The position numbers were made by a program, and so were the translations under genes. From contig JAHQIY010000013.1 in assembly GCA_019054805.1 (NCBI GenBank), positions 2,914,001-2,978,000 on the forward strand: a stretch of 64,000 bases of DNA, in the 5' to 3' direction. The DNA comes from Brachionus manjavacas (Eukaryota; Rotifera; Eurotatoria; Ploima; Brachionidae). Under the pieces are notes generated by a model. The model had not been told where the DNA came from. It did not search any database and worked only from the letters and a program-made list of their open reading frames with translations. This document shows, piece by piece, positions 5,001 through 50,650 of the stretch; the stretch's first letter is position 1, and every line of letters starts with the position of its first letter.

Positions 5001-8000
5001 ATATTCTGTCTAAAAATTAAAAAAAAATCCTCCTTCTTCAGGCAAATTGAAGTAAATGATCAAATGTTTATTTTAAATCAAAATTTTTTGTTTTTGATTT
5101 ATAAAAAAGGTATTTTTTTATCAAATTTTAAATAACAATTGGCTAGAATTAACTGATTTGTTTTATCTTTAATTAGGATGAGATTATATGAATTTTTATC
5201 TGAAGTAAAATGAATATTAATCAATTTTTTGAAATTTTAAAACACACAATTTAACTTTGTTTCGCTGTAATAGGTGAACTATCATAAAAGAGAAAAAAAA
5301 ATATAGAATCTTAAAAAACAGAGAAATAAATTAGAAAAAAATTATTTATAGTTTTTTAATTGAGCCAGATGAAAAAAAAGAAGAAAAGATAAAAAGAAAA
5401 GTTTTGGATTATAAAAATTTTTTTTGTAAATCTGTACCGATCTAATGTTCCTTCAGAATAAAAAAATATAAAATAAAAAAATTAAAAAATATATAAAATA
5501 TAAAAAAAAGAATTAAATAATGAGAAAAAAAATTAAGTTGAAAAAGCTAAAGGTTAAAATAAAAAAACACCCTATAAAATTTTAAAATTAAGATTTTAGA
5601 ATAATCAATTAAAGATCAATTGGAAAAAAAATATTTGTTTTATTTAAATTAAAATAATAATCAATTTTTGTTTAATTAATAAATGTTTGTGATCTTGATC
5701 ATGAACTTCAAGGTGCTCTTCTTCTTTGCCAGTAAGAATTGGACAAAAATTTTTGCTCTCCAAATTAAAAGAAAAATTGAGGGTAATAATATTTAAGAAA
5801 TTTTGTTTATTTTTTTTAATTAATTTTTTAACTCAGCAGGCTTAATCGGCAAATTGAAGATCACACGATCATTTAAAATTTAAAGACTTAATTAATCTAA
5901 TGATCTTGATAGTTTTGTAACAATAAATACTAAATATTACTACACATGTTATGTTTAATTTAGTTCATAGATAGATTAACATCAAAATGACCAAAACCTT
6001 TAATTTACTGAACAAAAACAATCATTAATTTAAATATTTTAGGTTTAAGTTAATTCGGAAAATTGTTTCTTTTAAATTCATTAATTCAAACTAAAATAAT
6101 TCGATTTTTCCACTTAAAAATTTTAAATATTTAGAGTTTTTGTTTTTAAGAGTTTTTATTAAAATAAATTAAAAAATTTAAACCCATTAAAGTTCAATAA
6201 AAAGGGATATTTTATATTTTTATAAAAAACTTGACATACATTTATTTTTTCTCTATTTTTAAAAATTATTACATCTTTTATTTTGAGCATTTGATTTTGA
6301 TCTTGAAATTCAATTTTTCGCAAAACTGAGTAATCATGATTCTTAAATTTTCTTTGAATTTAAGGATAAAAATTTTTAAGGATTTAATTTAATAATTTTT
6401 TAAATTCTACTTAAAAGTTTAATCTGAAAATTCCAAAAATTTACTCCTTTGCCAGTATAAATTGGAAAACATTTTTTGGGTCTATCGCATTGTGTGACCA
6501 ACAGCTAATTGAATAGTCACATTTAAATTTGGTCACCAAAAAATAATTTTCATTAATTTAAAAATTAGTAAAATTGAAAAAAAAATTTCAAGAAAATTTA
6601 AAAGTGTCAATTTAATTTTGAGAAAAAAATTGCTCTATTAAAGTGTTTTTTTGAAATACTTGAAATTTTCTTTTTAATTATAATTAAAATTAAATTAGAA
6701 GACTCAAAACAATTTCAATTTTTGCGAGATTAAATTGGACAAAAATTTTTGCTTTCAAAATTTAAAGAATAAATTGAGGATAAACTTCACAATGCCAATT
6801 TTAAGCCCGGAAATTTTTTTGAAAGAATTTAAATGATACTCTGCAATTTACTCTTAAAATAAAAAATAAATCAATTAATTTGAAATAACAGAAAATATTA
6901 AGAATAAAAATAAAATTTCGATTTCTTCATTTAATTTTAATTTTAAGAAAAAATATATTATTAGTTGACCTAATAGAACCCGAATTTATACAAAATATTA
7001 AAATTCTTAATTTTTTTAGAAAATACATTTTTTATCTTACTCTTTTGAATTAAAAAAAATTGAACAAATTTTTTTATTGAAAAAAGGCTTAATTTAAAAA
7101 ATCCAAAAATAACAAAATGTTCCTAAATTTTTTTTATTTTATAATTTGTGGTCTTTTTAGGCTCTTTAGCTACCACCTGCGAACTTATATCCGTTTTAAG
7201 ACAATCACATGAAAAAAGGTAGTTTTTCCGCGGTATTTCCGCCAAATATGATTGGAATGAACTGAAACTAAATAAATACGTTGTTGTTAAATTTTTTCAA
7301 ATACCTGTTAGATCAATAACTCTATTCAATTTTTTACAATTTTATGTATTTTAATTTTGATATTTTATATTTTTATTAATAATGAATTTAATAAATGAAG
7401 TGTTAATCAGTCTCATGAGACAAGGGAACTAGCCTGTTGATTAACCTTGAAATAAAAGTAATAATAAAAAAAAGGTACCAGGTACGTATTTTTTTACAAA
7501 AACCGCCAAAACTGACCCTAAACCTCCTCTCTTACTCTCTTAGATTAATTTTTGGTCACACTAGAATAAAAACATAAAATATCAATAAATTAATAACATT
7601 GATATTATATTGATTAATACCTGAACATAATCAGCATCTAAAACATCGTCAAAAAATAAATTTCTGTTTAAAGTTTAATAGAAATTTTTAAAATTTTCAG
7701 AAATTTTATTTTTTAATTTTTTAGCATAACCTTTTGAAAAAAAAAAAGTAATTGAATGGATATGCCGTTTTTAGGAAAAAGATAAAATTAAAAAATTTTT
7801 TTCTATTTTTTTTTTAATTTTGGGAGAAGGATTTTTGCTCAAGTATTCTATCCTTTATGGTTTAGTTCTGGGTTGTTAGTTTGGATGGATAAAAAAATGT
7901 GAAGACTTAAGTCTGATGGTGCGAATACTTTTATTTATCTAAAAAGGTAATATGAAATCGGCCGATCTAATCGATTCGGTCGAGTTTTAGTAGGGCCTAA

Positions 8001-8890
8001 AGTATAGAATAGAAGTGTAGTTGAATGATGTTTTCTTGTTTCATTCGATCCACATATAATTCACTTGTGATATGCATGCTTAAAGTGAAGGCTGTATGCG
8101 GCGTAAGCATTCACATCAGCTACGCGTGTGCCCTTCTATGTGATGCGTTGCAACAGTTCAGTGTCAAAACTTTCTGGGCGTTGGTGTGCGTAGATCGAGG
8201 GCGACATAACACCAAGAATTTGTTTATTGTCAAAGAAAGAGGATAATAATAAGAGGAGGAATGATTTTTAGAATTTTTTATTTTTTAGAACAAAGTTTTT
8301 GATTTTATAAATTAAGAAAAATAAAATTTTTTTTTTAAATTTATTGATCGATTTCTTGATAAAACAGAAGAAAAAATTGATTGTCCTTGATTTTTTTATT
8401 TTAAAGGAAAAAATATTTATAAAGAAATTAATTTGGTACATATAACCTTTTTCAGTGCAAGATTGAATTGATTATATTTTTTTTCTCAAATAATCATTTA
8501 AAAAGCTGGGATGAAATAATTTTTTTTAAGGCTATTGATTTTGCGCTGCAGAAGGCCAATGACTCGGCAATGGATTTGATGGTTGATTTTTTTGGGAAAT
8601 TGTGCCAAACAGTAGTTGTAACTTACGACCAGTTTAAAATGGTAGGTTGCACATTTTATTGTTGAAAAATGTTCAAGTTGGGTTTTAAGGGCCTGGTAAG
8701 AGTAGTAGATATTATTCAGGACATTTGCTTGGACGTTCCGAACGCCAGTGTAATGCTAGAGAAGATGATGAACAAGTGTCATTCTCGAGGATTTATCAAT
8801 GAGAGTATTTTGGATGTGATGCCAAATCGAAGCCGCAAGAGATTTGTGTCCGAGGGAGATGGCGGAAAGATAAAAGAAGATGTATATTAG
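2033..8890 (+). CDS. PDCD4: Programmed cell death protein 4 (two MA3 domains)
   Basis: PDCD4 family proteins bind the helicase eIF4A through two MA3 domains and restrain cap-dependent translation. Exons read as 2033-3082, 8531-8641 and 8690-8890, all in phase, giving about 453 aa; the human protein has 469. The first ATG in frame is 2033; the frame opens with a TTG at 2012. Visible marks are the conserved linker GAGGKHTWGAPG (about residue 93), DPNYD, MA3-1 at about 141-262 (HDIKPVILEFFQNGDT), MA3-2 from about 305 with the family signature LNVPHFHHELVFE at the exon 1/2 junction, and the tail RKRFVSEGDGG. The exon 3 acceptor is either 8689/8690 or 12-15 nt earlier, a 4-5 residue uncertainty. 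Intron 1 is 5.4 kb and full of repeats; intron 2 is only 48 nt. Exon 1 is far richer in GC than its surroundings. Confidence 0.95.
3220..5030. repeat. ~254-bp tandem array in PDCD4 intron 1
   Basis: A unit containing AAAACCCAAAAAAGTCA, TTTGTTATCCTCAACC, AATGAGAGAGATTGAAGG and AGTCGGCACGCTCAAATTT recurs. The AAAACCC word is at about 3348, 3603, 4675 and 4928. Spacing is 253-263 bp once the 812-bp insertion at 3839-4650 is discounted. There are about five full or partial units, the last ones shortened. No coding potential. Related, more diverged pieces (TTTGCCAGTA..AATTGG) recur at 5728 and 6438. Confidence 0.85.
3839..4650. mobile_element. hAT-like foldback MITE with 8-bp target duplication
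   Basis: Arms of about 265 bp (3839-4110 and 4385-4650) are inverted copies of each other. The ends read AGTTGTGGCAATCGA and, inverted, TTAGTGTTGGCAATCGA, a TAGTGTTGGCAA type of end known from hAT transposons. AAAAGCTT lies on both sides (3831-3838 and 4651-4658). Other units of the surrounding tandem array hold a single AAAAACTT at this place, so the empty site is visible. No transposase is encoded, so this is non-autonomous. The exact first base is uncertain by about 2 nt because the target ends in TT. Confidence 0.85.
5430..5600 (-). mobile_element. 3' end of hairpin-tail non-LTR retrotransposon (family 1)
   Basis: Sense is minus. The tail CTGAAGGAACATTAGATCGG at about 5437-5458 followed by TACAGATTTACAAAA matches the 3' terminus shared by eight other places in this window. 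The hairpin arms are eroded in this copy. Only AT-rich 3' UTR lies upstream; no reverse transcriptase remains. Confidence 0.6.
5601..7144. other. Intron sequence without gene
   Basis: This is part of PDCD4 intron 1. It is low-complexity AT-rich DNA with weak echoes of the tandem unit (5728-5790, 6438-6460, 6735-6785). No ORF or RNA gene seen. Confidence 0.6.
7145..7460 (+). mobile_element. Truncated non-LTR retrotransposon end (family 2)
   Basis: Plus-strand translation near 7215-7350 gives a degraded reverse-transcriptase C-terminus (FFRGISAKYDWNELKLNKYV). It is followed by the 3' tail GTGTTAATCAGTC ... GCCTGTTGATTAACC at 7401-7448. The same tail follows the reverse-transcriptase remnant at 55.2 kb, which identifies the family. 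The two ends of the tail form an inverted pair (GTTAATCA / TGATTAAC). Strongly 5'-truncated. Confidence 0.7.
7461..8530. other. Intron sequence; complex patch at 7900-8245
   Basis: The rest of PDCD4 intron 1. Positions 7900-8245 are clearly richer in GC than the flanks and open in one frame over 8025-8246. The conceptual product (73 aa) resembles nothing I recognise and the patch is probably a decayed insertion. The acceptor TTTTTTTAAG at 8521-8530 leads into PDCD4 exon 2. Confidence 0.45.
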
Positions 8891-9760
8891 TGTTGAATAT
8901 ACTTTGTCTAGTTTATAGTTTGGAAATAGATGTTTTGAAATATTAATTGAGATATTTTAAAAAGAAGATTCATTTGCTTATTTATTTTTTTCAATCAATT
9001 TAAAATGTTGATAAAAAAGTTATGTAAATTTTATCGAAAATAAAAATAAACCAAAAAAAATTCTTGATTTTTATTACCTGTTTTACTTCCCGAATACTTT
9101 GGCATTTTATTGCAGTCATGGTATTGTAGGCTTCAATTAAGAATTCTTTATTGATTATTAAAATAAAATTATTAGATACAAAATTTTATTAGGTTAGTGA
9201 CAAAAAGATTTTTTGTAAATTTTTAAATTGATTATTTTTCTTATATCAATCATTTTGTTAGGATTCTTATCCATTTTTTTTGCTATTTACTCAAAAGATT
9301 GGCGGCTTGACTTGTTAAAAACATTTATTTAATTTTAAGAATATTTTGAAATTTATTAACATCACATCTATTTCTAAAATGGGCCCAGATTTACAATAAA
9401 GTTAAAAAGGGTCTCTCAAATAAATAAGGAAAAAATTAAAAAAATTTTTTTTTACAAAAATGTAGTTTTCTCCTCTTTTTTTTGTGAATTAAATTAATTT
9501 TTAGTTTTTTTTAAAAAAGTATGAGGTTAAAGGTATTTTTTTGGTAAATTGAAGTTTCAAATTTGAGAGAAGCCTCAAGTTCCTTCTGATAGATTGTGCT
9601 GGTCCGGTTTGGGAAAGCGATCTGCAATGCGGGGGAAAAATATATGAAAATAAACTTTTTTTAATTTTTTTATGCAAATTAATTTTGAAATGGTTTGTTA
9701 TTAAAATAAATAGTTCAGTTTGAATTAAAAAAAAAACTGTATAAAAATATTTTTTACAAA
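8891..9760. other. Intergenic, PDCD4 3' flank
   Basis: Holds the PDCD4 3' UTR, with candidate AATAAA-type signals near 9036-9050, then AT-rich DNA without a convincing ORF. Positions 9560-9640 are more complex (GATTGTGCTGGTCCGG...) but do not translate to a recognisable domain. Confidence 0.45.
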
Positions 9761-9883
9761 CCCGATGTTGTTCAGACACAGGTTGATGTATTGAAACCAC
9801 AAATAAATGTGATTGAGCCTCAGGTGGATCTTTTTGAGCTACAGATTGATGTCCAAGAAAAAGGAAAGTTGAGGATGAGGTAG
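9761..9883 (+). pseudogene. Short open stretch with PQxDV-type repeats
   Basis: Frame from 9764 reads about 39 codons to TAG at 9881. The peptide repeats a hydrophobic/acidic pattern: VQTQVDVLKPQ, INVIEPQ, VDLFELQ, IDVQEKG. Heptad-like spacing hints at a coiled coil. It has no start codon and no clear neighbouring exon. It could be one exon of an undetected gene or a transposon ORF1 fragment. Function unknown. Confidence 0.3.
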
Positions 9884-10401
9884 TTGATTTAAATAAACCG
9901 GTTTAGAATTTGATTTTTTTGATCTCCTGTTATTATTTTTTATTTTTTAATGTATGAAAGTATTCTAAGAGATATATTTTTTAGTTGGGAACTTTTTTCT
10001 TTTCAAGTACCGAATGTAAGACTGACATTTAATGGGAGTCAAGATTTTTGAAATTCAAAAAGTGCATTAAATGCTTCATTCTCTTAATGAATTTTTTTTC
10101 TTCACATGCTTTTCTTTTAGAGAGATTTAGCCTGTTAGAATTTTTAAAATTTTTTGTCTTTTTGTCAAAAATTTCGAAAGCTATGATTTGAGTTTCAGAT
10201 CATTATCCTCTTAAAAAAATAGCTGGCTTACACGTGTAAGGATAAAAATACTTTATTGTTATTTTCAAACTTATTTTATAATTAAATAATTATATTCTTT
10301 TTAGCATGTAATATTTTTTAATAAATTTTATTCTTAAAGCAATGATAACTCTTCAAAAAATATTCTTAATGCATATGTAAAGAATCAAATTAGTCATAAA
10401 A
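9884..10401. other. Intergenic AT-rich, nothing recognised
   Basis: No ORF, repeat or RNA gene supported. Confidence 0.5.
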
Positions 10402-35454: not shown

Positions 35455-36905
35455 TTATTTTTTATTTATTTATTTGTTTTCTGTACCGAGCTAGGGCTCC
35501 TTCAGAATAAATTTAAAAAAAATCAAAATCAAAATCAAAAATAAATTTAAGTTAATAAAATGAGATAAAAAAAAATCAAAATAAAGTAAATAAGCTAAAA
35601 TAAATTGAAAGTTAAGAAGACATGTATTGAGTTGATTGTGACACATGTTTACATAGTTGAAGCTTCAGAAAAAAAGAGGAAATAGTAAGGTAGCAATTAC
35701 ACAATGGAGTTGGGCATTCAATATATCTCGATTCGAGACCTTCTTTGTATTCTTCCAACAGTCTGACAAACAATGGAATAGAATGACTCAAGAGTCCTGT
35801 CCCAACATATTTCTCACTCAACTCAAAAAGCCGATTTGAGACTGTTAGTATTTAAGTTTTAATAAGAGCCTCATGATGTACGATGTTGGAGGGAGTATAA
35901 TATTTTAACTTAAGCATAGACTGACTGCTGTATTCTGCTGTATGCTTGTAGTTTTTTGATTTTATTTTCTGAAAAATGAATTCAAGCAAGGAAAAGAATA
36001 GTCTAAAATTGATCCGACTAAAGATTTATATAAATTTCCTAATGTGTTTTGAGTGAGACCCCATTTTTTATTTGAAAATACAGTAGAAGCTCTCAAAATG
36101 AACATCCTCAAATGTGAACAGCCCTATAAGTGAACACAAATTTCTTGCGACCGACCAAAATGAATCTTTTTACATGGCATAAAATCCCTCAAATGTGAAC
36201 GTTCGGTATGTGAACATGAAAAATTTAGAAAAAAGTGAACAAAAAACTCGAAAAAAAAATTTATTTACAGCTAAATTCAAAAATTTTTTTTAATATCTTC
36301 GTAATATACATGACTTTTAAATTTATAATATATATTTTATTTAATTTTTAAAATAATCTTCGATTATCGATTGTGTTTGGTTGGAAAAAAATAATTTTTA
36401 CATTTGATATTTTTATATATCAAATGTAAAAATTTTTCCTCCGTGGTTAGTTTATTATAGTTATTCAACTTGGATGCTGACATTTTTCTAATTAGAGATT
36501 AATTTGGAGATTCAAATTTTTGCATTAATTTTATCATCATTCAACTGATAATTAAATGAATACATGGTCTTATTTTTATTTTTATTTTTGTTTTACACAA
36601 AAATTAACTTAACATTTATTAATTTCACAAAAGTGAACAGTTCACTTTTGAGAGAGCATCCTCAAATGTAAACAGCCCTATGAATGAACAAAAATCCCTT
36701 GCGACGGCGAGTGTTCACTTTTGAGGGATTCTACTGTATCTTAATAATATTTAGCCTTTTGTTGCAGCGTTCTTTAATTTCGTCAACCATTATATTAAAA
36801 TTTAACTTAGAATCAAATTTAATACCAAGAAACTTGATTTCTTTTTGACTCACTATTCTGTTTCCATAAATTTTTAAGTTTAAATTATCACTCTTTTTTT
36901 TGATT
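35455..36905 (-). mobile_element. Family 1 non-LTR retrotransposon, 3' half, split by a MITE
   Basis: Sense minus. Upstream of the MITE: NLKIYGNRIVSQKEIKFLGI, KFDSKLNFNIMVDEIKERCN, KRLNIIKI. After it: WGLTQNTLGN, then NRLFELSEKYVGTG, SHSIPLFVRLLEEYKEGLES, RYIECPTPLCNCYL. This is the C-terminal region of a non-LTR reverse transcriptase. An AT-rich 3' UTR of about 100 bp follows, ending CTGAAGGAGCCCTAGCTCGG and TACAG plus an AAATA-rich tail near 35460-35480. The same end occurs at eight other places. 5'-truncated; frameshifted. Confidence 0.85.
36081..36736. mobile_element. pogo-type MITE inserted in family 1 element
   Basis: Ends CAGTAGAAGCTCTCAAAATG and (inverted) CAGTAGAATCCCTCAAAAGT are flanked by TA on both sides (36079-36080, 36737-36738). 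Inner blocks CCTCAAATGTGAACAGCCCT and TTGCGACC/TTGCGACG recur in both arms. Removing it restores contact between two parts of the interrupted reverse transcriptase, so it is younger than its host. No transposase encoded. Confidence 0.9.
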
Positions 36906-37045
36906 TATTTTTATTTTTTATTTATTTTGTTAACTGTACCGAGCTTAAGCTCCTTCAGAATAAAACCAAAAAATCAAAAAAAAAATTAAATAAAATAAAA
37001 AAAGAAAAAATCAAAAAATAAATTTAAAAATAAAGTAAATTAGAA
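36906..37045 (-). mobile_element. Family 1 3' tail, short copy
   Basis: CTGAAGGAGCTTAAGCTCGG (minus), followed by TACAGTTAACAAAATAAATA, with about 90 bp of AT-rich 3' UTR upstream. The hairpin stem is a perfect palindrome here. Lies immediately 5' of the larger copy at 35455, in the same orientation. Confidence 0.8.
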
Positions 37046-37269
37046 ATGATTTAGAAATCCTAATCATTTAAATTATAAAAAATTTACACATTAAAAACTC
37101 GAAGGATTCTCAATTGCTAGTTAGTGGAATATTCTAGAAACAAAAGTTGTTGAGCTTAATTATCTGGATTCTTTGTTTTACTTCGAAAATCGAATTTGAT
37201 AAATTTAGAAAACAACAGAAAAGTAAATTTGAGGAAAAAAGGAAAAGACCAAAAAATTAATAGATTACT

Positions 37270-37375
37270 TAGACTTATTTATGCTTTTTTTTATTTCATC
37301 TTATTTTATTTTATTTTTTTATTGTATTTTTTCTGAAGGAGCATTACATCGGTACAGATTTACAAATAAATAAAT
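37270..37375 (+). mobile_element. Family 1 3' tail, plus orientation
   Basis: CTGAAGGAGCATTACATCGG and TACAGATTTACAAATAAATA at about 37339-37375, preceded by a TTTTATTT-rich 3' UTR. The stem is partly mismatched. Confidence 0.75.
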
Positions 37376-38020
37376 TTCCTTTCAAAATAAAATTACCAAA
37401 AGACTTGTCAATCTATTTTGCCAAAAAATGGGTAAAAAAGATGTGTTCAGCCCGCTAAAAGTAATTAGCAATATTTAACATATTATCTTAACCAGCACAT
37501 CGAGTTCTATAGGAATATGCTTTAAAAAATATGGATTTAAACGCTGAGCTATTTTTCAAGTCAAAATTCTGCTCCGTTAACTTTTTTTAATTTAAATCTT
37601 GTTTATTTTGATACCATGAACATATGGTTGTAAAAGGGTCTAGGGGTCAAATATGTAAGGAAAAGTAATTCTCTTATTTACAAACCGTGAAGATTTATGA
37701 AGCATGCGCCTTTAAATTTTAACTATTTAAATAAATCTTCGAAGAATTTTACAAGTTTTTTTTTAATTCATGATCACTTAAATTTTTTACCTTTTCTTTT
37801 TACATGCCTTTAGATTTCAAAAATAAAAAAATTATTATTTTTTTTTTGACTTTTGCACATGTATGAACCCATATTAAAATTGGATAGATAAAATTTTTTA
37901 GGAGAAAAAAAATTTACAATTATTTCCGAAAGAGTCGGGACCCCCACTCTTGTAGAAAAAAATTTTGTTTTATTCTTTAATTTGAAAAAAAAATGAAAGT
38001 AAAATTTTTTTTTGATTTAC
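37376..38020. other. Spacer or intron downstream of the Ly6-like exon
   Basis: AT-rich. The second exon of the gene at 38021-38305 should lie here or farther left, but no frame with the expected terminal CC..CN cysteine pattern was found. Confidence 0.4.
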
Positions 38021-38305
38021 CTTATGCTGAATTCCTTGGAATTGTTGTGAGAGCCGACAGCCGATAAGCTCGGCGCTGCACTGCGCGACGCATTTTTTCT
38101 CCACACTTAAACTTTGCAGTTGATCAGGCAAGAAAGTGTGAGTGGTCATGCAGACGGCGTTGTGGATTCTGCATGGTTGGTCGATGGCCTTGCGGTTGCA
38201 CGCCTCGTTTGAGCTGGAGATGCACGCAAAACACGTCAAGTTGGAACTGGCCGACTCGAGGGGATGAAATGCGGCCAGCAGCGCCACAAATTGTAGCCAC
38301 AGCAT
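38021..38305 (-). CDS. First exon of a secreted Ly6/uPAR-like cysteine-rich protein
   Basis: 95 codons from ATG to a good donor (CATAAG|GTAAAT at 38021/38020). Signal peptide MLWLQFVALLAAFHPLESA, then LTCFACISSSNEACNRKA, PCRIHNAVCMTTHTF, VEKKCVAQCSAELIGC: ten Cys in the mature part, opening with the LxCxxC motif and spacing of the three-finger Ly6/uPAR fold. Such proteins are secreted or GPI-anchored receptors and modulators. The C-terminal exon, which should carry the last cysteines, was not located. GC-rich relative to surroundings, with codon use like the real genes here. The gene may be intact with a distant exon or may have lost its end to transposon insertion. Confidence 0.7.
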
Positions 38306-38765
38306 TTCTAAAGGAAAAAATTTAAATTTGCTCTCCTAAGAATATTGACTTTAATAAAAAAGCGATTAGTTCCATTCATCAAATAAATGTGCTCTCAATT
38401 TGAATATTTATTTAGCATAGAAACAAAAAAGCCAATTTGAATTTCACTTGATCGCAAATATCATATGAATATAATTAGCTTATTTCTGGATCATTTGAGT
38501 GTTTAGAGTTAGGCTTGATTTGGGATTCGAATGACATTTTCCTATTTGACATTCTTTCGAATAAGCTGAGCACAAATCAAACATACTTGGGCTTGTTTTG
38601 CTATTTGACGTGACATTGATTCGGCCCGAAATTAAAAAACACCGAAACGTCTACGTACGTACTCTAAGCGAGTTGTTTGATTAGGCAAACTGAGAAAATA
38701 TTGACTTGCAAAAATATGCTTGAACTCAATGACAAAACTAATCAAATTTGTTTGAGAATGTAAGA
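38306..38765. other. Upstream region of the Ly6-like gene
   Basis: Somewhat less AT-rich, no ORF. Position suggests it holds the promoter; no motif is assigned. Confidence 0.4.
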
Positions 38766-38941
38766 AGAATAACAAACCTTGATATATAAATAGCAATTAA
38801 GCCAATTCAATTAGATGCCTATTTGTTCTAATTGAATGAATCAATTAGTCTTAAAACAATGCTAGTCACGATTTAAGTTATTCAAGCATTTTTATGATGT
38901 TTGTAGCCAGATAATTAAAAATTAACTTTTTAATAAAAAAA
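38766..38941. repeat. 176-bp direct repeat, copy 1
   Basis: AGAATAACAAACCTTGATAT through TTAATAAAAAAAT matches 40121-40297 almost base for base (differences such as CTAGTCACG/CTTGTGACG). The DNA between the copies is made of retrotransposon ends. Confidence 0.92.
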
Positions 38942-38994
38942 TCTTTCCTTTCCGAAAGAATCAGATCAGTAAGCTAAAAATTTGACTAGTCCAA

Positions 38995-39125
38995 TAGTTC
39001 CATACAGATTAAAGTGCGTAATTTCAATTGCTGGACAGAAACAAAATTGCTTTTTTGTAATGGTGAAGGTCACAACATCGCGAGATGTCATGTTAAGAAA
39101 CAAGCCTGCACAAACTGCAATCAAA
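38995..39125 (+). pseudogene. CCHC zinc-knuckle fragment
   Basis: With one frame change the plus strand reads NCFFCNGEGHNIARC then KKQACTNCNQ, a C-x2-C-x4-H-x4-C knuckle followed by a CxxC, as in gag or ORF1 proteins. Cut off by the family 1 tail that follows. Confidence 0.5.
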
Positions 39126-39129
39126 AAAA

Positions 39130-39300
39130 GAATTTATTTTATTTATTTATTTGTTAACTGTACCGATCTTAAGCTCCTTCAGAATAAAACCAAAAAATCA
39201 AAAAAAAAATCAATTAAAATAAATATAGATTTAAATAAAATCAAAAAAAAATTTAAAAATAAAGTAAATAAAGTAAAATAGAGTAAGAAGACACGAAATT
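39130..39300 (-). mobile_element. Family 1 3' tail copy
   Basis: CTGAAGGAGCTTAAGATCGG (minus; one stem mismatch), followed by TACAGTTAACAAATAAATAA, with AT-rich 3' UTR up to about 39290. Confidence 0.8.
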
Positions 39301-39314
39301 ATGCTTTTGTAATT

Positions 39315-39790
39315 ATATTTTATTTATTTTTATTAAAATAATAGTTAGGGGAGGACCCCGGGCAGTTTGGAATGGTAATTAAACTCCCTTTCAGCCCCGT
39401 GTTAGTAGTTTTGATAATTGAGAAAAAAGTGAACAAAATTTTGAAAATGATACAAGACAGAAAGTTTTTTTTTTTTTTTTGATCACTTGAGAGACACAAA
39501 TTTTTGAATAGAGCATAATTAATTTTGAATAAATTTAAAATTAGAATAAGAATAATAAGAATTAAGAAAATTTTTTTTTTTTTTTTTTTAGGAGTTGTGT
39601 TCGATGTTGATTTGACGATCCAGGTTCCAGGTAACATGTCTGAACTTTTATAATTATACAATAGGGGATTTAAGTTTTGTAATGTTAATTTTAAATTTTG
39701 ATAATTATTATTCATTGTGTTCTTTTTTTTTTTTCTTAAACCGAATCAAACTGATTTAGACCGGACTAGGAGTTAGCATGAACAGTCCAA
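39315..39790 (-). mobile_element. Family 3 retrotransposon 3' end
   Basis: The tail GGCTGAAAGGGAGTTTAATT, ACCATTCCAAACTGCCC and GGGGTCCTCCCC, then AAT-rich DNA (minus, about 39400 to 39320), is shared with 49875-49950. An open frame on minus (39320-39715) is mostly low-complexity. No RT motif remains. Confidence 0.6.
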
Positions 39791-39904
39791 CAGTGGTGGA
39801 GATTTTCTTCTTGGTAAAGACCTTATTATTTTTTTTTTTCGGTAATTTTGTGATTATTTTTTGTAACAATTTAACATTTAAATCAAGTAGGCTAGATAAA
39901 ATGA

Positions 39905-40080
39905 GATTAAAATTTATTTATTTATTATTTAATTTATTTGTTTTCTGTACCGAGCTAAAGCTCCTTCAGAATAAGTTAAAAATAAAATAAAATAAAAATA
40001 AAATTAAAGTTAATAAAATTAGATAAAAAAAGAATCAAAATAGAGTAAATAAGGTAAAAAAATGAAAGTTGAAAAGAGGG
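39905..40080 (-). mobile_element. Family 1 3' tail copy
   Basis: CTGAAGGAGCTTTAGCTCGG (minus) and TACAGAAAACAAATAAATTA near 39924-39970; perfect 5-bp stem. AT-rich 3' UTR continues to about 40080. Confidence 0.8.
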
Positions 40081-40120
40081 GATATTATTATATATATAAT
40101 TTTAAAAAAAAGTTAAAAAA

Positions 40121-40297
40121 AGAATAACCAACCTTGATATATAAATAGCAATTAAGCCAATTCAATTAGATGCCTATTTGTTCTAATTGAATGAATCAAT
40201 TAGTCTTAAAACAATGCTTGTGACGATTTAAGTTATTCAAGCATTTTTATGATGATTGTAGCCAGATAACTAAAAATTAACTCTTTAATAAAAAAAT
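40121..40297. repeat. 176-bp direct repeat, copy 2
   Basis: The partner of 38766-38941. Confidence 0.92.
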
Positions 40298-40424
40298 ATT
40301 TGTTTTTTTTTTTTGAAAAAATATAAAATAAAAAATTAAATTTGTTTAATTAAATACTGAAGATTTTGCCTTGACTGATGAAGACACTGCAAATCGTCAA
40401 TTCTTAGTTAAGAATTTTTTTTTG

Positions 40425-40915
40425 TTTTCTTAACCGAGCTAGAGCTCCTTCAGAATTAATTATAAAAAAAAAATAAAAATAAAGTAATTAAGCTATAATA
40501 AAATTTACAAAAGGTTAAAAAGACATAAATTGAGTTATTTGTGGCACATGTTTACATGGTTGAAGCTTCAGAAAAAAAGAGAAAATAGTAAGGTAGCAAT
40601 TACACAATGGAGTTGGGCATTCAATATATCTCGATTCGAGACCTTCTTTGTATTCTTCCAACAGTCTGACAAACAATGGAATAGAATGACTCAAGAGTCC
40701 TGTCCCAACATATTTCTCACTCAACTCAAAAAGCCGATTCGAGACTGTTATTAATTTAATTTTTGTTTGACAATATCTTAAAAATATTTAGTCTTTTATT
40801 GCAGTGTTCATTGATTTCATCTACCAGTTTATTAAAATTCAACTTAGAATCAAATTTTATACCAAGAACTTGATTTCATTTTAATTCACTATTTTGTTTT
40901 TAAACAATAAAAATC
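40425..40915 (-). mobile_element. Family 1 retrotransposon 3' part, second long copy
   Basis: Minus-strand frame 40515-40724 gives SEKYVGTGLLSHSIPLFVRL, LEEYKEGLESRYIECPTPL, nearly the same as the copy at 35612-35821. Upstream (40740-40915) are remains of the RT region (KLNFNKLVDEI, EHCNKRLNIF) with an internal deletion. Tail: CTGAAGGAGCTCTAGCTCGG at about 40436-40455. Confidence 0.85.
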
Positions 40916-41579: not shown

Positions 41580-43085
41580 AGACGGAGAATAGGAGACTAC
41601 GAGGTCTTCTATTCTGGAGTTAAAGAGTCAGAGGAGGCATACGGGAGGTTCTAGTTGCAGTGCGACCGCGCCACATAAGGGCTTTGACAGCATGGGGCGC
41701 AGTGAATGAGCGGATTATCTGAGTCAAATTTAGCTCGCGGAATGTTGCAACAACGTTTGTAAGTTGCTACGCACCAACAGAAGAGGCAACATAAGAGCAT
41801 AAGGAGAGCTTTTATGGACAGCTGCAAGCCGTTTTACACAGAGACATGGTGTTCCTGATTGGTGATTTTAACGCCAGGGTAGGCAATGATTATGAGGTAT
41901 GGGGGGCGTCAGTGGAAAGCATGGACTGCGGAACGAGGAGATGAACAGCAATGGTGAAAGGCTGTTGGAACTGTGTATGGTCAACAACTTGAGCGTTTGC
42001 AGTACCTTTTACCAGCACAAAGACATTCACAAGATTACTCTTGTGAATTTCAATTCTCAGAAAGCCAAAAGCCAGATCGACCACATAGTGGTTAACCGGA
42101 GATGGCTGTCAGCTATTCAGGACACCAGGGTCTGGGCTGGAGCAGACTTCGGAACCACGGATCATTACTTGCTGGCAGCGACGTGCAGGCTAAGACTTAA
42201 AAGCTCGCGAAAGGTTAGCCCATTCGCATGTCTGGACGTGGAGCAACTAAGTCATAGCCTCAATAAAAGGCGAGTTCCAGATAGAGCTTAAATACAAATT
42301 CAGTGTTTTGAGCGACGAATGTGAAGATCTCGAGCAGAGCTGGGCTCGTTTGAGGACGGCCATAAGTGAGGTAGGTCAAAAAGTATGTGGACGAGAGAAG
42401 AAGCATTGCAATGAATGGATGAACGATGAAGCTCTGAAAGCTATCAATGAAAATGCCGAAGTCTTTAGAATGGTAAGAAGTGCCGTTACCAGAAGGCAAA
42501 AGGAAGCCACAATAAACCGGTACCACGAACTAAACAAGCTTTGCACAAGACTAGTCAGGAAAGCTAAGACATTGAAGGGTATGGACGGAAATGGTTTGAA
42601 AGTAGATTTCGTGATGTCGGATCGAAGAAAAACGCGGGGCACTCAGGTCAGCGGTACACTTCGTGTTAACGCGCTTTTGTATGCCGATGATCTAGTGCTT
42701 ATCTGTGAGAGCATGGAGATACTCACAGAATGTGTTAGGAAGCTTGAGGCTAAGACTCGGCAGTGGGGACTGATGATAAATGCTAGGAAGACCAAGTGGA
42801 TGACGGCTAACTGTGATGCTGGGGATGAAAGACTCGAGATCGGTGGAGACCCGTTAGAAAGAGTCGACAAGTTTGTACATCTGGGAAGCATGGTGTCAAG
42901 CAAGAGGAGACGCGAAGGAGGATAAGTCTCGGAGCCTTCAAATTCCATCAACTTAGGAAGGCAGTGTGGGACTAGACGGCGCTTAGTACCAGAACCAAAG
43001 CCAGGGTGTCTACAATCCTCTATGGAGCTGAGACATGGACTTGCAATGATGATGATTATTCAAAACTCAACCGTTTTCACCTCAG
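41580..43085 (+). mobile_element. RTE/craniofacial-type non-LTR retrotransposon, decayed
   Basis: Endonuclease part in shifting frames: VSCYAPTEEAT, VFLIGDFNARVG, NNLSVCSTFYQHKDIHKITL, SQIDHIVVNRRWLSAIQDTR, FGTTDHYLL, matching the apurinic-endonuclease-like domain annotated in many animals as craniofacial development protein 2-like. After a deletion of most of the RT (near 42585), the palm returns: VNALLYADDLVLICESME, GLMINARKTKWM, then HLGSMVSS, LSTRTKARV, TILYGAETW. GC content is much higher than in the surroundings. 5' part and much of RT missing; several frameshifts. Confidence 0.9.
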
Positions 43086-43582: not shown

Positions 43583-43735
43583 ATATTATCTTGTAAGAAA
43601 TTTTTAAAATAATTTTGAAATAATATTGAAAAAATGCGACGTTTCAAAAATTTTTTCAGTTTCAAAAAAAAAATAATTTAAAGTTAATATTGCAAGCATT
43701 TTCATTTTTGAAATTAAACTATTTGATGAAATTTA

Positions 43736-43830
43736 TTTAGTTTTACTGAGCAAATGCTCCTTCAGAATAAAATACATGAAAAAGTTAAAGAATATAAGAT
43801 AAAATAAAAAATGAATATGGTAAATGAGCC
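43736..43830 (-). mobile_element. Family 1 3' tail copy with covarying stem
   Basis: Minus: CTGAAGGAGCATTTGCTCAG at about 43746-43765. The stem is GAGCA/TGCTC instead of GAGCT/AGCTC, so both sides changed together. Confidence 0.75.
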
Positions 43831-44777
43831 TAACCGGGTGACCTATTTTTTTATTGCATATTTCGCACTTATTTTATTCAAAAACTCCAAAAATGCTCAC
43901 CGAATTCACCCAATTAGCCCTATAAGAATTAAAAAAAGGATTTTAAAAGTTATTTTTTTCAAAAATTGAAAAAAAATTGAACGCTACTCAAGCTTTCCAT
44001 CTAATATTTATCTAATATTTTCATATTTTCATATATCATCTAAATATCATCTAATATTTTCCATCGAATACTTTTTTTTTAAACTTCTTTTTGTTTGTTC
44101 TGATTCATTTTTATATTATATTGATTATTTTTGATAATACAGAATGAATATTTTTATCAAATAAAATCAAATTATTTTTGGAAAAAAAGGAGAAACAAAA
44201 TTTTAAATTTTTCATAAAAAATGGCGTCATTGTGATCATTTTTGTCCATTCAGTCTAATTGTGTTAAATATTTTATTTTTGGGGGTAAATAGGTGGGATT
44301 TTTGTGTATTGAGGTGATACCTCATTAACCCCTTAACCCATAAAAAATAACAACATTAGACAACGGACCCATCGGCTATCTTAAAATTCTAGTAAAATTA
44401 TTTTCTACTAATTAAGACCAACTGAAAACGATAAGCAAAAAGGTCAGTTCAAACTTGTTCCGTCATCGGGTCAAAAATTGTCAAACATAATTACTAATTT
44501 GAAAAATTCTACCGAATTTGCCGAAAAAACTTTGAATTAAAAATAAAAAGGTTTAAAAATTTTTTAAAAATATTTCATATATATATTTGGATTCCTCTCT
44601 TCAAGATTTACAAGAATATGTGGGTTGTTTAAAAAAAAACGACTGATATATTTCGGTTTTTCAAATTACGTCACCGAATTTACATTAAATACATTTAGGC
44701 TGTGTTACCATACAAAAAAAAGATAAATAATTCACTTAGAATAAAGTTTTTATTCAATTGTTGAAAAACTGGGTCTA
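43831..44777. other. AT-rich spacer with weak inverted motifs
   Basis: No gene. CACCGAATTCACCCAATTAG near 43899 and GGGGGTAAATAGGTGGG near 44281 are the most complex parts and may be remains of element ends. Confidence 0.4.
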
Positions 44778-44992
44778 GTCGGTTAGGTTAACCATAGTTC
44801 ACTTATTATCCAAAGTTCTTGTTCTCAGGTTTTGTGAACTATACCTAATTTTTTTGTTCAAAATTTAATAGATGAAAAAATTTCAAAATAGTTGAACAAT
44901 TTTTAGATAATGTTATGGTCAATTAATAGTTCATAAAACATGAGAACAAGAATTGTTCCAGTAACAGGTGAACCATAGTTTACCTAAGCGAC
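44778..44992. repeat. 215-bp inverted repeat (MITE-like)
   Basis: Arms 44778-44845 and 44927-44992 match inverted: GTCGGTTAGGTTAACCATAG / GTCGCTTAGGTAAACTATGG, TTCTTGTTCTCAGGTTTTGT / TTCTTGTTCTCATGTTTTAT. Spacer about 80 bp. Too short to code. Confidence 0.8.
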
Positions 44993-45391
44993 AAGAACCG
45001 AAAAACTATGTTTTCCTCTAATAAAATTTTGACTTTAGTGATAATTTACTTTCGTTTGGTGCATTTTAACAAATAATTAATTAATGAAATATGAAGAACA
45101 GAGCGAAGATGGTTTTTTAAACTTCAATTTTGTCTTTAAGGATCATCATTTTAAAAAAAAACATTATAAAAACATCATTATAAAATTTAATAAAAAAAAA
45201 AGTTTTTCATGTTTGGGAAATTAACTTTAAATTATTTTTTTATTTGAAACTGATAAAAATAATTTGAATTATTTCAACATTGGATACATTTTGTAATTCA
45301 AACACAAAAAATTAAACCATTTTAATTTGCATTTATTGTTCTGAAGATTTTAAAAGTTTAATATTGAAAAAATTAAAAATTTATTTTAATC

Positions 45392-45653
45392 AAATTTATT
45401 AATATTTTGAAAAGATTCTTTTTTTTTATATTTTTTTTTGTTGTTGGTAAATGAAAATAAATGTAATCTAAACAATGAAAATTTTAAAATCGCAAAAAAA
45501 CTTAAAATTAAGAAAATTGGAGAGATTAATTTTTTTTTTTTAAAGTAAAAAATTTCATTGTTTAGATTACATTTATTTTCATAATTGTGGGGAAAATCCC
45601 ACAACAAAAAAAATATAAAAAAAAAGAATCTTTTCAAAATATCAATAAATTTT
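45392..45653. repeat. Palindrome directly upstream of the five-exon gene
   Basis: The arm 45392-45480 (AATATTTTGAAAAGATTC, ATGAAAATAAATGTAATCTA) recurs inverted at 45553-45653 almost perfectly. The right arm has an extra GTGGGATTTTCCCCAC, itself a small hairpin. It ends 70 bp before the start codon at 45723. Confidence 0.9.
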
Positions 45654-45722
45654 CAACTCTAAAATAAAAAACCTTTTTTTTCAAAAGAAAATTTTTTTAA
45701 TTAATTTTAAAAGTTATCTTAA

Positions 45723-47631
45723 ATGAGTTGGTTGCCAGGAATATCGCAAGCCAAATCTGTATTCCAGTTAATAACTGGTGATGTTGATGGAGCAAAGGAA
45801 ACTCAAAAACAATTTTTTCAACAATGTCCTGTTGTTTCTCAGTCTGTTGCTCTTGTTCAATTGATAGCTGATGATAAAGAAGGAGCTAAAGAAACATGGA
45901 ACAAAGGATGCTCTACAATAAATCAAGTAGTTAATAGTACTCCAGGTGTTGGTCATTTAAAGAGTGGCATACATAAAATTTGTGGAGATGATGAAGGTGC
46001 AGCACAAGCTTTCAAATCAGCAAATAGATCTGCTGGTAATGAAAATCATTTTTAATTTAAAAAAAAATATTTATTTTGATTTTAACAGCTGTTGCAGCTG
46101 GTGGTGTTGGTGGTTTTTTTGCCGGAGGACCAGTAGGAGCTGCTGCTGGAGGAATGTATGCGGGACTTGTAGTAGATACAGTAACTACTGTTGTTAATTT
46201 AGAGCCCAGTGGTAGCCTTCACACGTTCGAAAGAATCACCCAAGAAAAGCATGCTGCTGGCGCTATATTTGATTTCGTTACTGGCGTAGCATTAGATGGA
46301 GCAGCTGGTTATTCTGCTGGTCAAATAACTGGAAAAGTTGTTGGTAATTATAGCCTTAAAAGACTCTAAAAATAAAACTAACTAATAACTTTTAGGCAAA
46401 ATTAATAAAAATGCGGCTATGTCAAAAATAGATGTAATAGAGGCAAATAAACTTAATCTAAACGACGCTCAATATCAAGCTCAATATGATGCAGCATATG
46501 CACAATACAAATATGGAGAAAGTTTGCAAGGTAGATTTAAAATAATCTTTTTATTTAAAAAATTATATTTAATTTATTAATCAGGCATTAAATATGACTA
46601 TGCTAAAGATGGTTCTATAATTCAATCTAAAACATCTGTTAAACCTATCACCTCCATCAATGAAGCAAATGATGAAAGTAAATAGTGGTTTCTGCATAAA
46701 TTCCTAAATTTTCTAAAATTTTAAAGAATTAGCTTCAAATCAATTGAAAATTGCTGTAATTAGCGAAAACCAAGTATTTGTTGAAATTTTGCTATCTTTA
46801 TTGCGACATGAGTTTAAAAATTTTGAAAAACTTTTAAAAGATCAAAAATTGGAATTTGATCTAGAAAAATTGAATAATTTACAAAAATTAAAAGATTTTT
46901 TAATAGAAAATGGCGTCATTAAAAACTATCACTTTTTGAAACAAAAATTTGGAAATTATCTTGTAAAACAATCGCCAATAACTAGAACATTGGCTATTTA
47001 TTGGATTGAACTAAACCAAGAATTGAAAAATGTTTTGGAACATGAAAAAAACGATGTTAAAAATAAAAAAGTATCCCAGAAAGGTGAACACGTTATAAAT
47101 AATGGTGTTATAGAGCTATATAATAAGATAATTGATGAGTTCTTGAATGTAAAGCTTCACAAAAATTTTTCAGAAATAGAAGATCAATTGAGCTATTTAA
47201 GTCAATTAAAAAAAGACTATAACAACGATAAAATCCCCTCAGGATTTATATCAATAGAGAATAAAGTAGCCATCAAAAATGTAATGATTTGGAAGCACGA
47301 AGAACCATATTTTGATGCAAATGCTCTCATGTATGGTTTTTTTATCGAAAATCTAATGCAATCTAGTGTTAACCACATGATTGAACTTTGGGACTGTAAA
47401 GAAAAAGGATCCTTTTTTACCAGGCATGTTAAACTCTGTACGGAAGAAATTAGATCAAAAGAGGTTTTTGTTGACAAAATAGCTTATTATGGATGGATTA
47501 ATCAAGGTGGAAATCAACGCACATATAATAAAGCAAAAATTGAAGTTGATTACATGTTTGATAAACTTTTTGACAAGCTAAAATTTTGGGTTTTAGAATT
47601 AAAAAATGTTCCAAGCTTGTCGCATTACTAA
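45723..47631 (+). CDS. Five-exon gene of unknown function; glycine-rich hydrophobic core
   Basis: Exons 45723-46035, 46089-46343, 46396-46530, 46585-46677, 46727-47631; phases agree, 566 aa. Introns are 49-53 nt. Residues 1-100 hold a roughly 30-residue repeat around G/D-D-x-x-G-A: ITGDVDGAKETQKQF, IADDKEGAKETWNKG, ICGDDEGAAQAFKSA, with TPGVGHLKSGIHKI between. Exon 2 is a glycine/alanine-rich hydrophobic stretch (VAAGGVGGFFAGGPVGAAAG) like a glycine zipper that could insert in or dock on a membrane. Exon 3 is Ala/Tyr-rich (AQYDAAYAQYKYGE). The long last exon is lysine-rich and helical with no domain I know (FEKLLKDQKLEFDLEKLNN, SVNHMIELWDCKEKGSFF). No signal peptide. AATAAA follows at about 47646. 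Function unknown. Confidence 0.88.
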
Positions 47632-48463
47632 AAAACATTAGTTATTAATAAAATTTTGAATAATCTTTTTTTTGTAATTAAAATTGAAGATTTTTTATTC
47701 AATTATAAAGCTATTACCAAATTTTGGAAGTTTTAATTTTAGATCATCTTTTTAAAAAAATTAATTACTTTTTTTTGTTTAAAATAAGATATAAAGTAAA
47801 ATTATAAAACATTAATATAAATTGAGTTAAATCTAAGAGTGTTTTGTGATATTCTGTTCAAAAGAACCAAAAAAAATGACTAAATATTTAATAAATTTTT
47901 TTTATTTCAATTTCATAACTAGTTCTGTTAATTAAACATTGAACTTGGACAATTGTATTAACTATCAAAGTCTGCTGAACTGTGCAAATTTACCAGGAAT
48001 TAAATTTTAATTTTATCAAATTTTGACTCTTCACAGAACAAATATTAAACTGATAAAAAAAAAGAGATAATAGATATTTTTTACTGAATTTCTTAAAACT
48101 ACGCAAGAAGCATTTTTCATGTTTTTCAAGCTAAAAGTATTTAAAAATTTATCTATTTTTCAATAAATTATATTCAATTTTAAGAATTATTTATTTAATG
48201 ATATTTAATGAATTACAAAATGAATCCAATGTTAAAATAACATTGAAAAAGTGCGATGTTTGAAATAATTTTTTTCAGTTTCAAAAAAAAAAAATAATCT
48301 TAAGTTAAAATTTTTAATATTTCAATCAAATCCACACTAATGAATTAACAAAACAAATTTACGAGGAGTTAAATGAAAACAATATAAATATTGTAGATTT
48401 AAATAACATAAATTTATATGAGCATATAGCTTGAATATTTAAATTCGTCGTAAAAAAACGAAA
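47632..48463. other. Intergenic, AT-rich
   Basis: 3' flank of the five-exon gene. CATTGAAAAAGTGCGATGTT near 48240 resembles ATATTGAAAAAATGCGACG near 43622, a minor dispersed repeat. No gene. Confidence 0.5.
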
Positions 48464-48473
48464 ATTGAAAAAT

Positions 48474-49328
48474 GAGACTATTTTTAGTCAGTAGATATTT
48501 ATTTTTTCCAGAAGATATTTTATTTTTTTTTAAAAGATAAAAAAATACAAAGAAAAAGATAAATGTTTTTTATCATATATAATAATTTTTTATAATAGAT
48601 AAAAAAAATTGATTAAGAAAAAAAAATTAATTAAGAAAAAAATAAAAAAAATTAATTCCGTTTATTACGGTTTTCTTCTCTTTGATAATCTAGCACTTTG
48701 ATTTGAATTTTCATCATTTGTTTGATTTTCTGTAATTAAATTGGCATCATTTTTCTTGTTTTTTTTAGGTCTTCCACGTCCACGTTTTTAAGACTAAGAA
48801 CTAAGAACCGGTCTTTGTAGATTTTCGTTATCAATCAAATTTGTAGCCGAACTTTGATTAATAAATTGATTGTTAATTGGAGCTATTGAATTTCTTTCTA
48901 GAGATGGATTAGCTTTCTTTTTACGTCCACGTTTAGCATTACCTTCAATTGCCAAATCTAACCCTGGAAATTCATTCAATTTCAGAATAAATGATATGCC
49001 TATAACATGTTTACATTTGAGATGTTTTTTCCAGTATTCACAGGAACAAGTACTTAGTTGCCAATCGTCAATGTCAATTTTAATTGAACGAAACTTTTTA
49101 ATTAATAAGAAACACTTATTAAGTGCTAATTAAGTATAATTAGTTAATCTAACACATAAAAAAAATTATCTACTTAACAAAACAATTATCTTCGTAACAA
49201 AATAATTATCTACCGAAAAAGGTGAAAATCTACTAACAAAAACATTTATCTTTTCATTAAATTATCTTTTTTTTAAAATAAAATTATCTTCTGAAAAAAA
49301 CAATTATCTACTAACGAAAAACTATGCC
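48474..49328 (-). mobile_element. Internally deleted Mutator-like element (MULE) with 10-bp target duplication
   Basis: ATTGAAAAAT stands at both 48464-48473 and 49329-49338. Element ends (GAGACTATTTTTAGTCAGTA and, inverted, GGCATAGTTTTTCGTTAGTA) and the following 120-150 bp of AGATAATT-rich DNA are inverted copies of each other. A 9-11 bp target duplication, long inverted ends and a SWIM-type transposase tail inside together identify a MULE. At 855 bp it has lost the catalytic part and depends on a partner element if it moves at all. Confidence 0.9.
48655..49118 (-). pseudogene. MULE transposase C-terminus: SWIM zinc finger plus AT-hooks
   Basis: Minus-strand translation: FRSIKIDIDDWQLSTCSCEY, WKKHLKCKHVIGISFIL. 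The CxC-xn-CxH pattern (CSC...CKH) is the SWIM zinc finger found after the catalytic core of Mutator-like transposases. KRGRKKKANPSLERN follows and, past a stop and frame change near 48790, KRGRGRPKKNKKND to KRRKP, two AT-hook-like basic motifs. The frame is closed upstream by TAA near 49119, exactly where the inverted terminal DNA begins, so only the tail was retained. Confidence 0.85.
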
Positions 49329-49338
49329 ATTGAAAAAT

Positions 49339-49869
49339 CTTGGTCAGATTTAATTAATTCTATATTTAATTATTCAATTTTTGAATTTTTTTTTTTATAT
49401 ATTACTTAAGTTTCGAATAAAATATTTAATCTTGCTTAAATTACTTAACTAGAAAACAGTTTAAAATCTTGATCAATCTTGTTTTTGTTAATGGGAGATG
49501 TAGCTTGATCAAAAATCTCAATTTGGATGGTCTAGTTAATTACATGAAACGAATCAAAGTAATTAAATTGGACTAAACAGAATGGACGAAGAGTGAATGC
49601 AGTTGTTCATTCTTCCTGGAAAATTACTTTTGTTTTCATATAATAGCTTTGGGCGTAAATCTTAAGCTAACGACTATACCAACATGGTACACGGTAAAGT
49701 TGTTTAGTAAGGCAAGATAGTGAGCGAAGAAAATAAAACTAAGATTTTTTATACTCTTTTTTGTCTTTTATTATTCTCCTAAAATTAAATGAAATAAACG
49801 CTTTTTAAGTATTTTTACACATTTATTTTGAATATATATTATAAACAGAAATTAATTAAATTAAACTTA
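49339..49869. other. Intergenic, nothing recognised
   Basis: Somewhat more complex near 49560-49720 but no ORF. Confidence 0.45.
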
Positions 49870-50000
49870 AATTAATTTATTTATTTATTAAAATAAAGTA
49901 TGGGTAATACCCGGGCAGGTTGGAATGGAACTTAGTCCTTCCTTTCAGCCTAATGATCAAAATACAATAATATAAGATAAGTTTATGAGATTAAAATATA
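49870..50000 (-). mobile_element. Family 3 retrotransposon 3' tail
   Basis: Minus: GGCTGAAAGGAAGGACTAAG, TTCCATTCCAACCTGCCC, GGGTATTACCC, then AATAAATAAATAAAT. Shared with 39320-39410. The small hairpin GGGTATTACCC replaces GGGGTCCTCCCC of the other copy with both sides changed. Confidence 0.7.
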
Positions 50001-50139
50001 TAATTATAAAAGAAAAAAAAACAAATAATTAAGATAAAAGTAGACATAATGTTAGACATGTTTTGAAATAATTAAATAAATATAGGACTATTAAAATTAA
50101 CAAAAAATATAAATATATAAATCTTAAATTGGATTTATA

Positions 50140-50650
50140 ATGGACTACTTTTTTCCGTGTCTGAATTCATTTTCGGAGACAAACTTTAAAAAAATTCAAA
50201 TCTTACAAAACTCAGCAGTTCGTTTTATACTTAAACTAAAACATGATACTCCTTTCAATATATTGCGTCATGAGGCCTTTAATAAACTTTAACTCTGAAC
50301 TGTCTCGGATCGACTTTTTGAATTGAGCAAAAGAAATGTAGCAGGAAGACTGCGTCATTCTGTTCCATTGATTACCAAGCTGGTTGATGAATATAAAGCG
50401 GTTTTTGAATCAAGGTATGTTGAATACCCAACTCCATTGTGTAATTGCTATCTTACTATTTATTCTTTCTTTAACAACAAGAACAAACACTTTGCATCTG
50501 TCACCTCTTACAATTTATCAACTTAAATTTTTTTTTTATATTAAATTATTTTAATTTTATCTAACTTTTTCTTTTTTTTATTTTGTTTTATTTTTTTAAT
50601 CTGAAGGAGCTTTAACTCGGCACAGATAAAACAAATGAATAATAACAAAT
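50140..50650 (+). mobile_element. Family 1 retrotransposon 3' part, plus orientation
   Basis: Plus translation: KIQILQNSAVRFILKLKHDT, PFNILRHEAFNKL, SDRLFELSKRNVAGRLRHSV, PLITKLVDEYKAVFESRYVE, YPTPLCNCYL, homologous to the copies at 35.6 and 40.5 kb but more diverged. Tail CTGAAGGAGCTTTAACTCGG at about 50603-50622, then CACAGATAAAACAAATGAA. 5'-truncated. Confidence 0.85.

Follow-up and report, generated by a model that had tools for sequence, protein, structure and literature searches.

The R2 retrotransposon, which inserts at one rDNA site and carries a restriction-like endonuclease, has a structured 3' untranslated region (3'UTR) that is bound by the R2 protein. Among long interspersed nuclear elements (LINEs), passages of Hayashi 2014 (PMC4176376) describe UnaL2, ZfL2-1 and ZfL2-2 as stringent-type members of the L2 clade, whose 3' stem-loop is recognised by the ORF2 protein. 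According to the same passages, the loop is the specific part in zebrafish L2 LINEs while the stems are exchangeable, and distant L2 relatives with about 60% reverse transcriptase (RT) identity share a nearly identical stem-loop (Hayashi 2014, PMC4176376). The way in which a LINE RT chooses its own RNA has been worked out in few elements. Here, we describe a 3' hairpin in LINEs of the rotifer Brachionus manjavacas, starting from 64,000 nucleotides of contig JAHQIY010000013.1 (assembly GCA_019054805.1, positions 2,914,001 to 2,978,000, forward strand; hereafter the window), in which a preliminary description had noticed nine retrotransposon ends with a common hairpin. The hairpin is real, abundant and an ordinary kind of signal. 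It is probably the recognition hairpin of a stringent-type LINE, read through its arms and internal loop rather than through its terminal loop.

A hairpin at the 3' end of a LINE group

The elements that bear the motif are a group of non-long terminal repeat (non-LTR) retrotransposons, or LINEs, of the apurinic/apyrimidinic endonuclease (APE) type. A C-terminal RT fragment from the window was compared with the genome (114 Mb, 61 contigs; C denotes a contig and L a fetched locus), and all 150 of the candidates scored, out of 2,517, were matches. The longest of the fetched copies, L045, has a single open reading frame (ORF) of 942 amino acids with an APE-like endonuclease and an RT (RVT_1, 1.3e-41; Exo_endo_phos_2, 9.8e-15; Exo_endo_phos, 1.7e-10), the latter similar by sequence to solved R2 and LINE-1 ORF2 chains. 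Where an RT chain reaches residue 938 or beyond and is followed by its own intact motif, the motif begins 77-206 nt past the chain end; at larger gaps the nearer copy is altered, or the arrangement is nested.

The exact pattern CTGAAGGAGCN4GCTC occurs at 2,362 places genome-wide and its reversed control at none, and the 25-mer is found at 4,077 places when up to three mismatches are allowed. With a free 10-mer between the anchors (CTGAAGG-N10-CGGTACAG) there are 1,644 places against 1 for the control and 6 for a spacing of N11, the spacing with one base fewer, N9, not having been searched for. Insertions of this 3' end are scattered through the genome.

Downstream of the motif, most of 86 copies have AAAACAAATAAATAAATA or a variant of it, an (AAAT)n-like tail, and the first 30 nt consist mainly of AAAT repeats with a few runs of 8-9 A (window 5432 and 40429). 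Clean target-site duplications of 13 bp lie directly past the tail at C1:690921 (TTAGCATTTTAGT) and C8:342302 (TAATCAGCATCGT), and L025 is the empty site of another insertion, its duplication being read by eye. Because the RT ORF lies upstream, the tail downstream and the duplications directly past the tail, motif and tail form the 3' end of target-primed insertions. This corroborates the earlier view that the hairpin is the 3' terminus of one RT group, both by its position after the RT ORF and by its attachment to the group. The end of a DNA transposon, or a palindrome, is disfavoured, since the hairpin is one-sided, stands 3' of an RT ORF and is followed by a repeat tail and duplications.

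The tail also bears on what the hairpin does. AATAAA-like repeats stand directly past the motif in most of the 86 copies, as would suit a hairpin that serves the RNA in 3'-end formation, transcription stop or 3' protection, with AATAAA as a poly(A) signal. However, the sequence past the motif is mainly AAAT repeats and not long poly(A) runs, and a processing signal would have no need to remain in the copied part at a constant position ahead of the tail; we regard this role as improbable.

Within the window, nine matches to the 20-place pattern CTGAAGGAGCN4GCTCGG are found at up to three mismatches, two on the plus and seven on the minus strand, and each of the nine places named in the preliminary description falls inside one of them. 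The shuffled window gave a mean of 0.02 matches and a maximum of 1. The copies, their RT remnants and one host repeat are as follows.

5432..5456, minus strand: hairpin copy 5437, both arms altered (G9/C16 to A/A)
35481..35505, minus strand: hairpin copy 35486, exact core, loop CCTA (fifth pair C-A, unpaired), (AAATA)n tail
35669..36081, minus strand: C-terminal fragment of the RT ORF of the copy ending 35505-35481, by tblastn with the L045 RT protein
36934..36958, minus strand: hairpin copy, exact core, TTAA loop
37333..37357, plus strand: hairpin copy 37333, 3' arm altered (CATC), head to head with 36958
39158..39182, minus strand: hairpin copy, 3' arm altered (GATC)
39945..39969, minus strand: hairpin copy, exact core, TTTA loop
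40429..40453, minus strand: hairpin copy 40434, exact core, TTAAG replacing TACAG
40572..40811, minus strand: C-terminal fragment of the RT ORF (SHSIPLFVRLLEEYKEG) of the copy ending 40453-40429
43741..43765, minus strand: hairpin copy 43746, loop ATTT (A-T fifth pair), an old insertion within another repeat
44714..44902, minus strand: upstream part of the host repeat of the 43746 insertion, 81% to L068 126-323
50113..50472, plus strand: C-terminal fragment of the RT ORF of the copy ending at 50601, 69% to L045 over 120 amino acids
50601..50625, plus strand: hairpin copy 50601, subfamily B, CACAG ATAAAACAAAT tail, C10-A15 mismatch

The copies are less uniform than first described. All nine had been said to end CTGAAGGAGC-N4-GCTCGG; four do so exactly and five only with mismatches. 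TACAG comes next in six (not at 40434, 43746 or 50601), and AAATA repeats follow most copies, being weak or lacking at 5437 and 40434. The stem GAGCT/AGCTC, earlier assigned to most copies, has its four core pairs (GAGC/GCTC) complete in five of nine; the fifth pair is T-A in five, A-T in one (43746) and unpaired in three (5437, 35486 and 37333). The supposed G-T pair at 50612 is actually a C-A mismatch (GAGC..ACTC). RT C-terminal sequence lies directly 5' of three copies, namely 35486, 40434 and 50601.

Six of the nine copies fall within 5 kb (35481-40453). Genome density predicts 2.3 copies per 64 kb against the nine seen (Poisson 6e-4, for a window chosen with the copies in view), and on contig C1 5 of 99 neighbour gaps are below 1 kb where 1.25 are expected. 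Pairs of 3' ends lie head to head, about 300-500 bp apart and with the hairpins outward, at 36934-37357, C1:690420/690921 and C1:1188253/1188580; perhaps new copies inserted into the T-rich 3'UTRs of older ones. In the small contigs C39, C51 and C53 (also C20) two LINE ends lie side by side, and this pair recurs in several near-identical copies, which looks like the duplication of a larger unit. At 41896-42925 of the window (plus strand), ORFs in the ORF list resemble, by eye, endonuclease and RT parts of a different LINE.

Constraint and compensatory change

Changes along the hairpin were placed on a tree built from the 180 upstream nucleotides of 101 copies. Internal branches carry no change per site in AAG, 0.75 in the arms, 1.2 in CTG/CAG, 1.5 in GGTA and 5.25 in the loop. 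Dead copies should decay alike at all sites, and the contrast between sites therefore most likely comes from the source lineages. The predicted fold has an outer stem (UUCUG/CAGAA in family A, AUCUG/CAGAU in B), a purine-rich internal loop with AAG opposite GGUA or GAA, an inner stem GAGC/GCUC closing a variable 4-nt loop, and then the (AAAU)n-like tail. When the 3'UTR segment was scanned in 40-nt windows, the most stable one contained the hairpin in all 11 representatives. For seven of them (two of family A, B L044, D L070, F, H and E) no more than 5 of 200 shuffles were as stable, these being several tests without correction. The one copy of family G (L056) has a predicted fold that is not the A-type hairpin.

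Several results weigh against a recognition hairpin of the stringent type. Three RT C-termini are followed by 0.9-1 kb without the motif (L017 at 2219, L060 at 6257, L004 at 1725), and those in L022 and L012 by a motif remnant only. An automatic search for duplications of at least 12 bp returned 10 of 95 copies against 27 of 470 with swapped flanks, a weak result in which a single repeated family segment accounts for seven of the ten; this wide search was set aside, and the target-site evidence is that of the clean cases. Stability is moderate against shuffles for the window copy 50601 (23 of 200 as stable), D L069 (14 of 200) and family G (17 of 200), and the family 2 fold is no better than its shuffles (145 of 200). 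A conserved stem-loop by the 3' terminus, ahead of a short tandem tail, is what characterises a stringent LINE, and it is present here; compensatory pairing changes, which are supportive and not defining, are missing.

It is on this last point that the preliminary description had leaned, and joint change on both arms is not borne out. Pair changes were scored in 105 copies (86 + 19), reduced to 103 by removing two chance rows; the sample is not random, as copies with RT were sought and some unusual loops were picked deliberately. Over the four core pairs, both sides had changed with pairing kept in 0, 0, 0 and 1 copies, that is, in 1 of 412 cells, which belongs to the much-altered L022 copy; 23 cells were broken and 9 showed a one-sided change with pairing kept. 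On the 101-copy tree, for which one weak and one too-short row were further removed, in none of the four core pairs, nor in pair 5, do both sides change on the same branch with pairing kept, and pair 5 shows 19 losses, 5 gains and 2 pair-keeping changes, all of them one-sided. Covariation, on which the preliminary description had made its reading depend, is not significant in the main family. Among 100 unselected places from the free-10-mer list, the core was altered in 10 and compensated in none, and pair 5 was paired in 65 where 67.6 were expected. The mixed sample had shown an excess at pair 5 (61 of 103 copies against 52.6, reached in 66 of 10,000 shuffles), a figure that counts related copies as independent ones and draws on the deliberately picked loops. 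The excess is gone in the unselected list, and we rejected compensation at this pair.

The outer extension pairs behave somewhat differently. The second is paired in 78 of 103 copies, with 4 of 10,000 shuffles as high when the relatedness of copies is ignored. Traced on the tree, its pairing was kept through a two-sided change 2 times, lost one-sidedly 8 times and gained 8 times; for the first extension pair the corresponding counts are 1, 9 and 2. One example is T-A in family A against A-T in B. Set among many one-sided changes, these three two-sided events are no more than suggestive of compensation. In the six copies of family D, n4 is T throughout and n1 is G, G, C, T, T and A.

The A-T fifth pair at 43746, which had seemed to speak for joint change, has another history. 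This hairpin sits in one host repeat together with those of L065, L067, L068 and L057, with both flanks in common, and L025 has the same host repeat without the insert. Since the flanks are shared and L025 is empty, the pair represents one old event amplified by another repeat, and a lone 'compensatory' copy can accordingly be one insertion copied by a different element. At 43680-44902, a truncated LINE end of about 95 bp thus lies inside a dispersed repeat, by which it has been spread to at least five places (the window, L065, L067, L068 and L057). An A-T fifth pair also occurs in L066, where the tail and the surroundings are different.

Because covariation is lacking, recognition of sequence without structure has to be weighed: CUGAAGGAGC and GCUCGGUACAG could be read as sequence, the protein or the RNA end requiring just these letters, with arm pairing mattering little. 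The arms are indeed near-invariant in letters, their changes are one-sided except in one cell, and CTGAAG is present even in family 2, within a different hairpin (CTCC TGAA GGAG). Against this, within a 3'UTR rich in A and T the two invariant blocks are complementary and almost always separated by 4 nt, the letters between them are free, and families H and E have other stems in a similar layout. We therefore consider a purely sequence-read signal unlikely. The hairpin looks real and under selection despite the missing compensation, and the proposal that it is the template signal of the RT probably holds by position, RT group and constraint, although the joint-change evidence offered for it fails.

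Related LINE families

Over shared columns, RT identity to L045 is 71-77% in family B, 50-55% in D, 38% in H, 35% in G, 32% in F and 30% in family 2. The arms and AAG are kept in B and D, with GAACAG in D where A has GGTACAG. Family F also keeps the arms; its end is GGCTGAAGGAGCCCTGCTC(T/G)TAGCC or a close variant, found at 11 places when three mismatches are allowed. CTGAAG or CTGAAA is found in A, B, D, F, H and family 2.

The end of family H reads GCTG-AAA-N18-AAG-CAGC, and its inner stems include GGGGA/TCTCC, GGAGA/TCTTC and GAAGG/CCTTC. At up to two mismatches this pattern gave 1,121 matches against 458 for the reversed control, and hence only the 38 exact-anchor places were used, three of which were judged chance by eye. 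At C1:423683 and C4:5937736 the hairpin is 554 nt away from an RT match, and AATA-type repeats follow the hairpin in five fetched copies but not in the one in L045. The inner stem is 90% paired, which is not above shuffles without the three chance rows. An apparent covariation signal (0 of 500 shuffles on two measures, 27 distinct rows) became 90 of 500 for cells paired and 37 of 500 for the score once these rows were removed, leaving H, like the main family, without significant covariation. As the search pattern prescribed the outer stem, that stem is uninformative on this question. By eye, a second small hairpin stands right past the first in H and F (L081, L082, L084 and L086), with differing letters, for example GACC-ATA-GGTC, GACC-GTA-GGTC and TTTCTT-TAAA-AAGAAA.

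The end of family E in L019 reads ATATGGC-GAAAA-GAG-N8-CTC-AAA-GCCATAT. Of 8 exact-anchor places, 6 resemble E, and two of these differ from each other at both positions of one outermost pair. Family 2 ends in L059 with CTCCTGAAGGAGGTTAATTAAATTC followed by AAATA repeats, and 35 such places occur at up to one mismatch. The L059 family (minus strand; RT about 28-30% identical, end CTCC-TGAA-GGAG plus AAATA repeats) has in many of its copies the 9-mer CTGAAGGAG in common with the main group.

The tails are not spread equally over unrelated elements, a pattern that would have spoken against the preliminary description: five distant RT fragments lack the motif. In these (26-38% identity, with at least 565 nt downstream: L059, L026, L055, L056 minus and L045 plus) the 25-nt motif is absent at up to eight mismatches, although L026 and L056 nonetheless carry motif relatives. 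It is absent also at L047 plus and L056 plus (43% and 57%), where the fragments stop before the C-terminus.

Nesting needs care in such comparisons, as nested 3' ends can fake sharing across families. In family E (RT 44% to L045) an apparent main motif was rejected as a nested main-group 3' fragment, and L034 proved to be no chimera but to contain a nested main-group 3' end. Nested ends of this kind (L008, L034) would also fit a tail spread by exchange or capture of 3' ends, with the likeness between families due to recent swapping instead of long constraint. However, D and F have their own hairpin variants at the normal distance from their own RT ends, and B has its own tail variants, which makes swapping quite unlikely as the explanation. 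A tentative possibility, which we think somewhat doubtful, is that LINE families with RTs 32-77% identical share one code of arms and internal loop (CUGAAGGAGC ... GCUC, free loop), with H and E using the same layout in other letters. If true, the recognition logic would be the opposite of that in the L2 LINEs, with the arms fixed and the loop free, and a shared code would open LINE families to cross-mobilisation.

Recognition and comparison with known systems

For a stringent-type hairpin read through arms and internal loop, the ORF2 protein would bind these two parts and target-primed reverse transcription would start in the AAAU tail, so that an RNA would be copied only with its arms kept, regardless of upstream changes. 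With its thousands of 3' ends, and several RT families in which the hairpin is retained, shifted or replaced, the genome amounts to a natural mutagenesis series, in which the loop emerges as free and the arms and AAG as fixed.

Covariance models from Rfam gave no window match at gathering score, and in nine loci at E <=1 the one match was a weak small nucleolar RNA in L059, away from the hairpin. A published description of this element or hairpin was not found in listings of the rotifer and Brachionus LINE literature or in passages of PMC8447722 and PMC6555955, and among the matches listed for the motif 10-mer in full texts there was no LINE paper by title.

R2 resembles the group in RT sequence and in the notion that a 3' RNA structure marks the template; unlike R2, the elements described here have an APE-like endonuclease and scattered insertions. 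Like the stringent L2 LINEs, as far as the passages of PMC4176376 describe them, they combine an endonuclease and RT ORF with a stem-loop at the 3' end, its binding being presumed in our case. The (AAAT)n-like tail is a difference from those elements. A further difference, seen by sequence comparison, is that here the arms and internal loop are fixed and the loop is free. Recognition, if it works in this way, would therefore be laid out differently from that of the L2 LINEs.

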